Shown: positions 1 through 2,241 of the stretch, one piece after another | How positions within the stretch are numbered: the stretch's first letter is position 1 | How the letters are laid out: every line of letters begins with the position of its first letter | Source: Blastococcus sp. TML/M2B | GTDB taxonomy: Bacteria; Actinomycetota; Actinomycetes; Mycobacteriales; Geodermatophilaceae | DNA length: 64,000 bases | Assembly: GCF_016612865.1 (NCBI RefSeq) | Contig: NZ_JAENZZ010000002.1 | Span: 1,550,001-1,614,000, forward strand | Direction: 5' to 3' | Translations under genes and position numbers: made by a program | The notes under the pieces: model-generated | Told to the model about the DNA's origin: nothing | Databases searched by the model: none | Seen by the model: only the letters and a program-made list of their open reading frames with translations

Positions 1-478
1 AGCGCTTCGCGTCGAGCTCGAGATCGCGGCCGACCATCGTCATGAGCCGGACGGAGTCGCCCTGGTCGTAGATCGTGAACGTGGACTTCAGGCCCAGCTT
101 CGCCGCCTCGGCCCGCAGGATGCGCACGCACATCGAGTGGAACGTCGACACCCACATCGCGCGGGCGCGCGGCCCGACGAGCTGGGCCACCCGCTCCTTC
201 ATCTCGCCGGCGGCCTTGTTGGTGAAGGTGATCGCCAGGATCTCCCCGGGCGAGGCGTGCCGGGCGCCGAGCAGGTAGGCGATGCGGTGCGCCAGCACGC
301 GGGTCTTGCCCGACCCGGCACCGGCGACGATGAGCAGCGGACCGCCCTCGTGGACGACGGCCTGCCGCTGCGGGCCGTTGAGCCCGGCGAGCATGCGGTC
401 GAGCTCCCGTCCCAGGGAGCCGGGGGCGGAGCGCTGGAGTGCGGCTGTACCGGGGAGGGCCTGCTGGACGCTGCTCAT
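1..478 (-). CDS. pcrA: ATP-dependent DNA helicase UvrD/PcrA, N-terminal part
   Basis: This is the first 159 residues of a superfamily 1 3'-5' DNA helicase; the rest lies beyond the left edge. These enzymes unwind DNA in nucleotide excision repair and displace proteins from DNA. Visible motifs are the Q motif LNGPQRQAV (33-41), Walker A GAGSGKT (53-59), motif Ia ITFTNKAAGEM (83-93) and the WVSTFHS segment (109-115). The ATG at 478 lies 9 nt after a TANNNT box (TACAGT, 493-488 on the minus strand), so the mRNA may have almost no leader. The divergent chorismate mutase partner is typical of actinobacteria. Confidence 0.93.
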   Translation of the reverse strand, partial: MSSVQQALPGTAALQRSAPGSLGRELDRMLAGLNGPQRQAVVHEGGPLLIVAGAGSGKTRVLAHRIAYLLGARHASPGEILAITFTNKAAGEMKERVAQLVGPRARAMWVSTFHSMCVRILRAEAAKLGLKSTFTIYDQGDSVRLMTMVGRDLELDAKR

Positions 479-503
479 GACGACATCACTGTAAGCCGGA
501 CGG

Positions 504-532
504 GTGACGCTTCCGGGCGGTTGTGGCAGACT
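504..532 (+). promoter_or_regulatory. Probable promoter of the leader peptide/chorismate mutase transcript
   Basis: A GTGACG -35-like hexamer (504-509) and a CAGACT -10-like hexamer (527-532) are 17 bp apart. Transcription from here would start at about 539-540, on the GTG of the leader peptide, giving a leaderless mRNA. The hexamers are inferred from spacing and the downstream reading frame; no other promoter-like pair precedes the leader. Confidence 0.4.
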
Positions 533-539
533 CCCCAAC

Positions 540-605
540 GTGCTCGCCACGACGACCCAGTTTTTCTACGGCCACCGGGTTCCGGTCGCCGTCACCGCTG
601 GCTGA
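540..605 (+). CDS. Putative Phe/Tyr leader peptide of the chorismate mutase gene
   Basis: A 21-codon frame starting at GTG reads V-L-A-T-T-T-Q-F-F-Y-G-H and stops at TGA (603-605). Two Phe codons and a Tyr codon are consecutive (561-569). The frame ends 15 nt before a GC-rich hairpin with a T-rich tail and 90 nt before chorismate mutase, which makes the precursor of Phe and Tyr. This is the arrangement of a ribosome-mediated attenuator: stalling at uncharged Phe or Tyr tRNA would favour read-through. The codons and hairpin are seen directly; the regulatory role is inferred. Confidence 0.6.
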   Translation: MLATTTQFFYGHRVPVAVTAG

Positions 606-620
606 GCACAGCCGCACCAG

Positions 621-655
621 ACGCCCCGGGCCCACAGGCTCCGGGGCGTTTCTCG
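621..655 (+). terminator. Attenuator hairpin before chorismate mutase
   Basis: ACGCCCCGG (621-629) pairs with CCGGGGCGT (641-649), and an inner GCC/GGC pairing extends the stem past a bulged T. The stem is followed by TTTCTCGTT. It sits between the leader peptide stop and the chorismate mutase start, as expected for a conditional terminator. The segment CCGGG (575-579), just after the Phe-Phe-Tyr codons, can pair with CCCGG (625-629) and is a weak antiterminator candidate. Confidence 0.6.
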
Positions 656-695
656 TTCCAGGGCCCGGGCCGACCCGCTCCCCGAAGGACGACCG

Positions 696-980
696 ATGAA
701 CACCTCCACCACCTCCCCCGTCGCCGTGACCGGCTCCGAGCTCGACCGGATCGGCGAGCTGCGCGAGCAGATCGACGCCTGCGACGCCGCGATCATCGAG
801 CTCGTGCAGCGACGGCTGGCGATCTCCCGCGAGATCGGCGTCAACCGCTTGGCCTCCGGCGGCACCCGGCTGAACCTGGCCCGCGAGCAGCAGGTGCTGG
901 CCCGCTTCCAGGACGCCCTGGGCACCGACGGCGCGGCGCTCGGCATGCTGCTGCTCCGGCAGGGCCGCGGCCGGCTCTGA
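696..980 (+). CDS. Chorismate mutase, short AroQ type
   Basis: This 94-residue protein converts chorismate to prephenate, the branch point to Phe and Tyr. It matches the intracellular actinobacterial AroQ-delta type: LREQIDACD (22-30), RLASGGTRLN (51-60) and a C-terminus LLLRQGRGRL. The Mycobacterium tuberculosis relative is weak alone and is activated by binding DAHP synthase through its C-terminus; that could apply here, although this copy ends two residues earlier than the form I recall. The start is the ATG behind GAAGGACGACC. It is divergent from pcrA and follows a probable aromatic amino-acid attenuator. Confidence 0.9.
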   Translation: MNTSTTSPVAVTGSELDRIGELREQIDACDAAIIELVQRRLAISREIGVNRLASGGTRLNLAREQQVLARFQDALGTDGAALGMLLLRQGRGRL

Positions 981-992
981 GCTCCCGCGGGA

Positions 993-1286
993 TCAGAGCC
1001 AGGCGCGCCAGACCAGCGAGTCGTCGTCGCTGAGCGCCGCGGTCTCCAGCACGTCGCCCGGGCACCGCGCGCCCAGCTCCGCGCCGAGCGCGTGCGCCTG
1101 CTCCAGCGCGGCCTCCAGGTCGGCGGCGTCGCACTCGGTGGAGGCGCGCAGCGCAGCGCGGTCCGGCTCGCGCCACACCCGCAGCTCCGCGTCGTCCGGC
1201 CGCAGCGCCGCGGTGACGGACTCGACGGTGGCGTCGTCCACCGCGGTGGTCGCCCGCAGCACGGCGTAGATGGTGAAGGTCGGCAC
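993..1286 (-). CDS. Small protein of unknown function (97 aa)
   Basis: I do not recognise a family. The 97-residue product is acidic and predicted soluble, with a hydrophobic beta/alpha start (FTIYAVLRATTAVDD) and a regular C-terminal helix; there is no signal peptide, membrane segment or Cys motif. It is convergent with chorismate mutase and divergent from the sigma factor. The GTG start at 1286 follows CAGACT and a 6-nt spacer, the same leaderless layout as upstream of the leader peptide at 540, which supports it being a real gene. Confidence 0.55.
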   Translation of the reverse strand: MPTFTIYAVLRATTAVDDATVESVTAALRPDDAELRVWREPDRAALRASTECDAADLEAALEQAHALGAELGARCPGDVLETAALSDDDSLVWRAWL

Positions 1287-1332
1287 GGAGCGAGTCTGCC
1301 CGATGCCCGATGATGCTCCCCGTGGAGAACCG

Positions 1333-2241
1333 GTGACCGACCTCCTCGGCGAGTTCGACCGCGCCCGCGGCCTGCTGTTCTCGGTGGCCTACTCGATGCT
1401 CGGCGGCGTCGCGGACGCCGAGGACGTGGTGCAGGACGCCTGGCTGCGCTGGTCGGCGGCCGACCGGGACGACGTCGACGACGCCCGCGCCTACCTGGTC
1501 CGCGTGACCACCCGCCTGGCGCTGGACCGGCTGGACTCCGCGCGGGCCCGGCGGGAGAGCTACGTCGGCCCCTGGCTCCCCGAGCCGCTGCTGACCGGCC
1601 GCGCGACGGTCGCCGCGGCACCTCCCGGAGCCGACCCGACGGACGCGGTCGAGCTGGGCGAGCAGGTCTCGATGGCGCTGCTGGTCGTGCTGGAGACGCT
1701 CTCGCCGGCCGAGCGGGCGGTGTTCGTGCTGCGCGAGGTGTTCGGCCTGCCGCTCGCCGAGGTGGCGACCGCGCTGGGCCGCACCGAGCCCGCCGTCCGG
1801 CAGATGGCCCACCGGGCCCGCGAGCACGTGCAGGCCCGCCGTCCCCGGTTCGACGCCGACCGCGACGCGCAGCGCGAGGTGACCGAGCGCTTCCTCGCCG
1901 CCTGCGCGGGCGGCGACCTCGGCGCCCTGGTGAGCGCGCTGGCCCCCGACGCTGTGCTGATCAGCGACGGCGGCGGCAAGGCGAAGGCGGCGCTGCGGCC
2001 GATCACCGGCGCGGACAAGGTGGCCCGCTTCGCCGTCGGCATCGCCGCGCAGGGCCTCGCGCTGCCCGACCTGCGGATCGAGATCGCCGACCTCAACGGC
2101 TCCCCCGCCGTCCTCGTGTGGAGCGGTGACCAGCCGGAGATGACCATGTCCCTGGTCGTGGTGGACGGCCGCATCACGCAGGTGCTCGTCGTCCGCAACC
2201 CCGACAAGCTCGCCGGTCTCTCCGTAGGCTCGCGCGGGTGA
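1333..2241 (+). CDS. sigJ: ECF41-type sigma factor with SnoaL-like C-terminal domain
   Basis: This is an RNA polymerase sigma factor of the SigJ/ECF41 group. Sigma region 2 spans about 5-75 (SVAYSMLGG, EDVVQDAWLRW), the linker carries GPWLPEP (79-85), region 4 spans about 110-165 and a SnoaL-like domain covers about 180-295. The group's hallmark motifs DGGGK (212-216) and NPDKL (289-293) are both present; in this family the C-terminal domain controls activity without a separate anti-sigma factor. I chose GTG 1333 because GGAG lies 5 nt upstream; ATG 1303 is an alternative. The usual carboxymuconolactone decarboxylase/oxidoreductase/epimerase partner is not adjacent. Confidence 0.88.
   Translation: MTDLLGEFDRARGLLFSVAYSMLGGVADAEDVVQDAWLRWSAADRDDVDDARAYLVRVTTRLALDRLDSARARRESYVGPWLPEPLLTGRATVAAAPPGADPTDAVELGEQVSMALLVVLETLSPAERAVFVLREVFGLPLAEVATALGRTEPAVRQMAHRAREHVQARRPRFDADRDAQREVTERFLAACAGGDLGALVSALAPDAVLISDGGGKAKAALRPITGADKVARFAVGIAAQGLALPDLRIEIADLNGSPAVLVWSGDQPEMTMSLVVVDGRITQVLVVRNPDKLAGLSVGSRG

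Follow-up and report, generated by a model that had tools for sequence, protein, structure and literature searches.

A probable leader-peptide attenuator sensing phenylalanine and tyrosine upstream of chorismate mutase in Blastococcus and other actinobacteria

Introduction

In Escherichia coli, pheA encodes a fused chorismate mutase-prephenate dehydratase and is controlled through pheL, a leadered open reading frame (ORF) that senses Phe. Among actinobacteria, Neshat is said to have described an AroR-aroF attenuator in Corynebacterium glutamicum in 2014. The accessible text of PMC11802643 places Phe codons in the leader peptide of the pheL-pheA attenuator and describes, for C. glutamicum, a Phe-Tyr-Phe run in AroR ahead of aroF that responds to limitation of Phe but not of Tyr. 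Other actinobacterial leaders, namely trpL, ilvL and leuL, are short ORFs, often leaderless, and come with terminators (accessible portions of PMC1262725, PMC8079986 and PMC13236596). According to the accessible portion of the last of these, replacement of the control codons of Mycobacterium tuberculosis ilvB1 eliminated induction (PMC13236596).

Reports on Phe and Tyr are largely negative. In its accessible portion, a 2005 survey of actinobacteria states that no conserved RNA regulatory structures were present upstream of phenylalanine or tyrosine operons (PMC1262725). The eight Streptomyces lividans attenuators in the accessible text of PMC8079986 include none for chorismate mutase, and the word ‘chorismate’ is absent from its main text. 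Neither phenylalanine nor chorismate occurs in the main text of two papers on mycobacterial attenuation (PMC4633059 and PMC13236596, the latter with one extended figure whose genes are unnamed in its legend text), nor in the accessible part of PMC2965389. Our literature search, with supplements and most subscription papers outside its reach, found no description of a Phe/Tyr leader for chorismate mutase; genome-wide tables may already contain the small ORF analyzed here (540-605). Attenuation of this kind is known from pheL and Corynebacterium AroR, and leaderless leader peptides are known as well; the chorismate mutase element is undescribed in the literature searched.

Here we analyze this element in a 64,000-nucleotide stretch of Blastococcus DNA (the window) and in its relatives. 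It is, in our assessment, most probably a ribosome-mediated transcription attenuator of the chorismate mutase gene that senses Phe and Tyr. The element is like pheL-pheA in combining Phe codons in a leader with a terminator before a Phe-branch enzyme that has chorismate mutase activity, but pheA is a fused enzyme under a leadered, Phe-sensing control, and the element here has no Rfam match. It shares with AroR-aroF an actinobacterial Phe/Tyr leader before an aromatic pathway gene, whereas its target is a stand-alone chorismate mutase and not a DAHP synthase. The trpL, ilvL and leuL leaders have a similar layout but serve other amino acids and other genes. The element would thus place a Phe/Tyr attenuator in a phylum for which a dedicated survey, in its accessible portion, reported none (PMC1262725).

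Architecture of the locus

An earlier note on this DNA had proposed a 21-codon frame with consecutive Phe, Phe and Tyr codons, followed by a terminator hairpin and the gene for chorismate mutase. Our analysis confirms this arrangement. The frame occupies 540-605 on the + strand and encodes VLATTTQFFYGHRVPVAVTAG, with codons TTT at 561, TTC at 564 and TAC at 567 and a TGA stop at 603-605, and both the hairpin (620-650) and the gene (696-980) are present 3′ of it. The features of the locus are:

2-478, - strand: divergent UvrD/Rep helicase, 5′ part in the window (PF00580)
504-509, + strand: -35-like hexamer GTGACG, 17 nt 5′ of the -10 box; weak, and variable among the relatives displayed (sequence)
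527-532, + strand: -10 box CAGACT, of the CANACT type (hexamer assignment across 205 elements)
540-605, + strand: leader ORF with GTG start, probably leaderless (sequence; F-x-Y-G core in 108/108 family regions)
561-569, + strand: control codons TTT, TTC and TAC for Phe, Phe and Tyr; the first and third encode the same residue throughout the family, whereas the second is free to vary (codon counts)
568-592, + strand: hairpin P1 (segments 1:2), from the Tyr codon to the second Val codon after Pro (fold and alignment A1)
582-630, + strand: candidate antiterminator, segment 2 (about 581-593) with segment 3 (620-630) (predicted pairing, column 22-79)
620-657, + strand: terminator hairpin (segments 3:4) with T-rich tail (stem energy, compensatory changes)
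540-610, + strand: tentative helix P0, 540-557 with the stop-codon region 591-610 (duplex energy, permutation)
684-689, + strand: Shine-Dalgarno-like GAAGGA for chorismate mutase (sequence)
696-980, + strand: stand-alone chorismate mutase, AroQ type, 94 aa (PF01817; NF005894)
993-1286, - strand: 97-aa frame adjoining chorismate mutase (no Pfam or NCBIfam match)

The chorismate mutase scores 98.5 bits against NF005894 (cutoff 73) and is the sole match to PF01817 in a profile search of the genome. Its start lies 90 nt 3′ of the leader stop codon, and the terminator begins 14 nt 3′ of that stop. The terminator is formed by a GC-rich bulged hairpin (620-650) with a stem energy of -23.0 kcal/mol, followed by TTTCTCGTT, and its U-tract is imperfect. 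Since the upstream gene is divergent, there is no other transcript for this terminator to end. A generic consensus scan of 400-1300 found neither promoter nor terminator, probably because it relied on an E. coli-type promoter consensus and because the stem is bulged and the U-tract imperfect. The leader RNA (540-665) folds with z = -3.9 relative to dinucleotide shuffles, none of 200 being as good. Shuffling 481-695 5000 times produced an aromatic-triplet leader once, and never one accompanied by a terminator by our criteria. Pattern search of the window's genome gave no second copy of the element, and in a covariance-model search the next matches in that genome had E-values of 0.008 to 9 and included the element's own palindromes on the opposite strand. 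A frame resembling the one at 993-1286 also lies beside chorismate mutase in relatives, for example at L013.

The leader start is 7 nt downstream of the CAGACT box. Position 504, with which the earlier note begins its element, falls on the -35-like GTGACG; an in-frame GTG there would give a frame of 33 aa. Across the 205 elements collected, a -10-type hexamer precedes an in-frame start codon by 7 nt (117) or 6 nt (85) in 202, a spacing that is partly by choice, since the script allowed 5-8 nt with a bonus for 6-7. The start codons of these 202, all in frame with the core, are GTG in 191 and ATG in 11, and the commonest hexamers are CACACT (94), CAGACT (87) and CATACT (12). A -10 box 6-7 nt from a start codon would place the transcript start at the start codon itself, so that the conserved box points to probable initiation at GTG 540 and a leaderless leader ORF. 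The earlier note regarded a leaderless leader peptide ahead of a stand-alone AroQ chorismate mutase as unusual; leaderless leaders as such are not unusual in actinobacteria, and seven of the eight S. lividans attenuators are leaderless in the accessible text of PMC8079986.

Conservation in the Geodermatophilaceae

A chorismate mutase match was obtained in 109 of 112 genomes of the family, and the upstream DNA was read for 108 of these, the other (G018) starting at a contig edge. The earlier note had looked to relatives for conservation of both the QFFYGH codons and the hairpin. The F-x-Y-G core is indeed kept, with one anchored copy per region in all 108, whereas QFFYGH as such is not, the middle residue being Y, F, S, A, P or L. 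The expectation for the hairpin was borne out, as a terminator passes our filter in 107 of the 108 regions (L022 fails) and compensatory changes preserve the hairpins. Our first pattern matched 96 of the 108 regions, and the other 12 carry FAYG, FPYG or FLYG and not an aromatic triplet.

The individual codons are conserved in different ways. Phe is invariant (108/108; TTT in 103 and TTC in 5), whereas the middle codon encodes Tyr in 55, Phe in 21, Ser in 20, Ala in 6, Pro in 5 and Leu in 1, so that some leaders (FSYG, FPYG, FAYG) possess a single Phe and a single Tyr control codon. Tyr and Gly are each present in 108/108, with Gly using all four third bases. Pro is CCG in 108/108, and Arg is CGG in 104 and CGC in 4; in 25 ORFs of the window, CGG and CCG stand at only 34% and 59%, versus 104/108 and 108/108 in P1. 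There is thus synonymous constraint within P1, while the loop codon varies. The N-terminal half of the peptide varies in both length and sequence across the family. The codons that follow Tyr are kept chiefly for the RNA hairpin and less for the peptide. Since the Phe codon is not part of P1, its conservation needs a reason other than RNA structure, namely sensing.

We considered whether the peptide F-x-Y-G-x-R-x-P-V might itself arrest the ribosome, perhaps together with an aromatic metabolite, with the stall setting the fold of the RNA. The residues after Tyr are well kept within the family (Gly and Pro in all 108), as noted above, which favors an arrest peptide, but outside the family the post-core residues differ (YRPAVPVV, TRPAGCHGRAA, TGSPAAVGRA) and the hairpin stays, with one displayed locus, L261, folding poorly. 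Moreover, the conservation includes synonymous sites and tracks base pairing, and the leaders of DAHP synthase described below gain Trp. Because the residues after Gly change between lineages while the hairpin persists, we reject arrest by the peptide as the main idea and consider it improbable. What the sequences themselves show is the conserved ORF, its control codons, P1, the terminator and the gene order.

Distribution beyond the family

In the class as a whole, 133 of 394 genomes gave a chorismate mutase match. Upstream regions were read for 29 loci taken by rank, one of which (L109) belongs to a family genome already counted, and for 20 more chosen for spread across families. A leader is present at 24/28 and 15/20 of these, that is, at 39 of 48 loci outside the family. 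Thirty-four of the leaders have F-x-Y-G, and the five variants are FYG (L259, L270, L271), YFYG (L261) and FFYA (L269). No leader was found at the other nine of the 48 loci (L123, L127, L133, L137, L258 and L272-L275). All nine are in family f2, and these relatives, of genera g14, g16, g17, g19 and g21, have either lost the control or shifted it elsewhere.

When named genomes were scanned with a pattern that required the core, at least 118 stretches matched. Of the 80 matches listed, 71 are followed by chorismate mutase within 900 nt and 2 more are leaders located at the ends of contigs. The other 7 (L143, L153, L156, L194, L198, L199, L206) were set aside as chance, since they lack a following chorismate mutase and their frames do not resemble a short leader. 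The genera represented include Mycobacterium, Mycolicibacterium, Mycolicibacter, Blastococcus, Geodermatophilus, Modestobacter, Trujillonella, Nakamurella, Pseudonocardia, Actinomycetospora and Rhodococcus. In f21/g38, probably Streptomyces, all 14 loci read have FTYG or FSYG leaders. The element is thus apparently kept from the Geodermatophilaceae to Mycobacterium and probably Streptomyces.

The terminator filter was passed by 195 of the 205 elements and failed by 10. At L136 (G299, family f2), the leader FFYGYRSAVPVV is kept while the terminator hairpin is largely lost, a natural test of a leader without its terminator. L141 (SPQJ01000012.1) is listed under the name Bacillus sp. AZ43 (UNVERIFIED_ORG), yet its element and gene are of the Blastococcus type, so the name is probably wrong.

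RNA structure

Covariation was assessed in alignment A1, which holds 73 of 98 non-redundant references and on whose sequences the structure was also chosen; the 25 left out comprise 5 of Streptomyces type, 3 with misplaced terminators and 17 others excluded for length. P1, which begins at base 2 of the Tyr codon, pairs columns 8-18 with 22-32, whereas the terminator pairs 70-77 with 101-108. P1 alone has 11 pairs, with 92.0% of cells paired and 4 pairs changed on both sides; together with the terminator, 92.8% of cells are paired. For the two helices combined and uncorrected for relatedness, both-side changes occur in 76 cells versus a shuffle mean of 30.6 (0/500 as high) and in 8 of 19 pairs versus a mean of 5.8 (13/500 as high). 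The corresponding count in slid controls was 2-33 cells. A further compensatory change is seen in the 14 Streptomyces-type loci, which have TAT for Tyr opposite CCAT rather than CCGT. The 30-nt P1 region is stabler than the mean of 20 mononucleotide shuffles in 205/205 elements. As P1 begins at the Tyr codon, the control codons are next to or inside hairpin 1:2.

The terminator also bears on a second possibility, in which control would be exerted on translation: reading of the leader would couple to or expose the chorismate mutase start, and the terminator would be incidental. Leader and gene do have the same direction with no gene between them, and the terminator of L136 is degraded. However, a strong terminator, conserved through compensatory changes, separates leader and gene, and chorismate mutase has an SD-like sequence of its own and starts well beyond the leader stop. 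We regard translation-level control as less credible still than an arrest peptide.

Transcription attenuation would call for pairing between segments 2 and 3. Masking the first 19 nucleotides from TTT onward, to mimic a ribosome whose A site holds the Tyr codon, gives three or more predicted 2:3 pairs in 73/73 rows of A1. Column 22-79 is C-G in 47 rows, G-C in 13, G-U in 7 and unpaired in 6, a switch that lies mostly between Geodermatophilaceae and mycobacteria and possibly reflects one or two events. The 2:3 energy did not differ significantly from that of shuffles (median z -0.79; z < 0 in 54/73) and a swap test was null (7477/20000). Thus, the case for 2:3 comes from geometry and one covarying column, and this predicted antiterminator is the weakest part of the attenuator model. 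In the window, the completed terminator wins thermodynamically over 2:3, so antitermination would have to be kinetic, as in classical attenuators.

A further helix, P0, may form between the first 18 nt of the leader and the stop region, with a duplex energy of -22.9 kcal/mol in the window. Among 32 diverse leaders, native partners average -15.8 versus -14.2 for swapped ones (31/20000 permutations as good), but only 3 of the 32 pair best with their native partner, and several mycobacteria rank low. P0 is strong in the window and in the Streptomyces-like loci displayed but weak in several mycobacteria, and we therefore regard it as tentative. If formed, it may shut the start codon to further ribosomes and so limit translation of the leader to one round.

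Proposed mechanism

In the following scheme, transcript initiation, ribosome stalling, antitermination, kinetics and amino-acid response are all inferred. RNA polymerase would start at the leader GTG, and a ribosome would load on the leaderless start. When Phe and Tyr are plentiful, this ribosome would reach the stop codon and mask segment 2, allowing terminator 3:4 to form and transcription to end near 650-657. When Phe-tRNA or Tyr-tRNA is short, it would stall at UUU-x-UAC and mask the 5′ arm of P1. Segment 2 would then pair with segment 3 while segment 4 is still unsynthesized, and polymerase would go on into chorismate mutase. In a leader that is not translated, P1, and perhaps P0, would form and termination would be the default. 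The spacing fits, as the 5′ arm of P1 lies within the footprint of a ribosome on the Tyr codon, given the known size of such footprints. Because the same arrangement of leader, hairpins and gene is kept in many relatives, the enzyme is very probably switched on at a shortage of Phe or Tyr.

DAHP synthase leaders

We searched 296 class genomes with a covariance model of P1 plus the terminator; 137 had a match at E ≤0.01, many of these matches being weak and partial. We read 20 model matches, picked mostly by E-value after those at chorismate mutase. Sixteen are leaders, of which 14 in family f19 and one in f40 precede DAHP synthase, as judged by translation, and one in f14 precedes chorismate mutase; the remaining four (L347, L349, L352, L353) were judged chance. 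The 14 f19 loci come from 25 f19 genomes with a listed match. One f19 representative and the f40 gene match PF00793 plus PF18152, the f19 one also PRK08673. At L334-L344, L346, L348 and L350 (f19) and at L345 (f40), the leader and a GC-rich terminator stand before a type I DAHP synthase.

The sensor codons of these leaders differ from those at chorismate mutase. The f19 cores are FWRFYGYRP or SFWYGDGP, with Trp beside Phe and Tyr in 14/14 read, whereas the f40 leader (L345, YFYG), YFYGYRPGVTGWAV, has Trp late only. Of 202 chorismate mutase leaders, 16 have a Trp at any position and 6 have one close to the block. Fisher's test on the Trp counts gives 4e-14, which overstates independence because the f19 leaders are two types in one family. 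DAHP synthase is the first enzyme for Phe, Tyr and Trp, whereas chorismate mutase feeds only Phe and Tyr. Thus, the node that feeds three aromatics has three kinds of sensor codon and the one that feeds two has two, so that the codons match the pathway node, as would follow if leader codons report on the amino acids to which the controlled gene leads.

The f19 leaders may share descent with the element at chorismate mutase, or they may have arisen by convergence at a different node. Neither DAHP synthase nor prephenate dehydratase of the window's genome has such a leader among frames of at least 20 aa. Among frames of 5-40 aa in the 450 nt upstream, DAHP synthase is preceded only by the tail of an upstream coding frame, with no core, and prephenate dehydratase by no frame and no core motif. 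We give even chances to a single ancient and portable aromatic attenuator across much of the Actinomycetia, with a UUU...UAY-GG hairpin core and sensor codons that change with the target. If true, this would mean F-x-Y at chorismate mutase, F/W/Y at DAHP synthase and one chosen node per genome. Leaders with Phe and Tyr at chorismate mutase and with Phe, Trp and Tyr at DAHP synthase constitute a natural experiment on codon sensing.

The downstream genes also argue against the idea that the element is an independent unit, a small RNA or a small protein gene ending at its own terminator, that acts elsewhere and does not control chorismate mutase. The element is short and has promoter-like and terminator-like signals of its own, as such a unit would, but each leader judged real is followed by chorismate mutase or DAHP synthase wherever the downstream sequence is long enough (71 of the 80 named matches listed and 16 of the 20 model matches), and the N-terminal half of the peptide is conserved neither in length nor in sequence. 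A stand-alone unit is therefore very unlikely.

A T-box or metabolite riboswitch would likewise be a structured leader with a terminator before an amino-acid gene, but the core here is an open frame with control codons, and we give this possibility almost no weight. Rfam searches of window positions 1-2000 (E up to 10) and of six class loci (E up to 1) gave no covariance-model match above the gathering score to Phe_leader or any described RNA family, nor any T-box match in the former. Each search returned two sub-threshold matches, those of the class loci lying away from the element, and all four were judged chance.

Use of UUU at the control site

The Phe codon of the leader is nearly always UUU, which is very rare in this genome. 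Among 25 long ORFs of the window, selected for their high GC3, TTT makes up 0 of 227 Phe codons. Its share across 400 kb of the same genome is 23 of 1949 in ORFs of at least 200 aa and 33 of 1868 in those of at least 300 aa (1.2-1.8%), and in 18 named family loci it is 9 of 658. The codon is less rare elsewhere: mycobacteria have it at 160 of 1964 Phe positions (32 loci), and a small f21 sample of 8 loci has it at 10 of 86. This near-exclusive use of a rare codon makes the possible tuning of attenuators by slow codons directly testable. Outside the family set, TTT is the Phe codon in all 24 class elements and in 72 of the 73 named ones.
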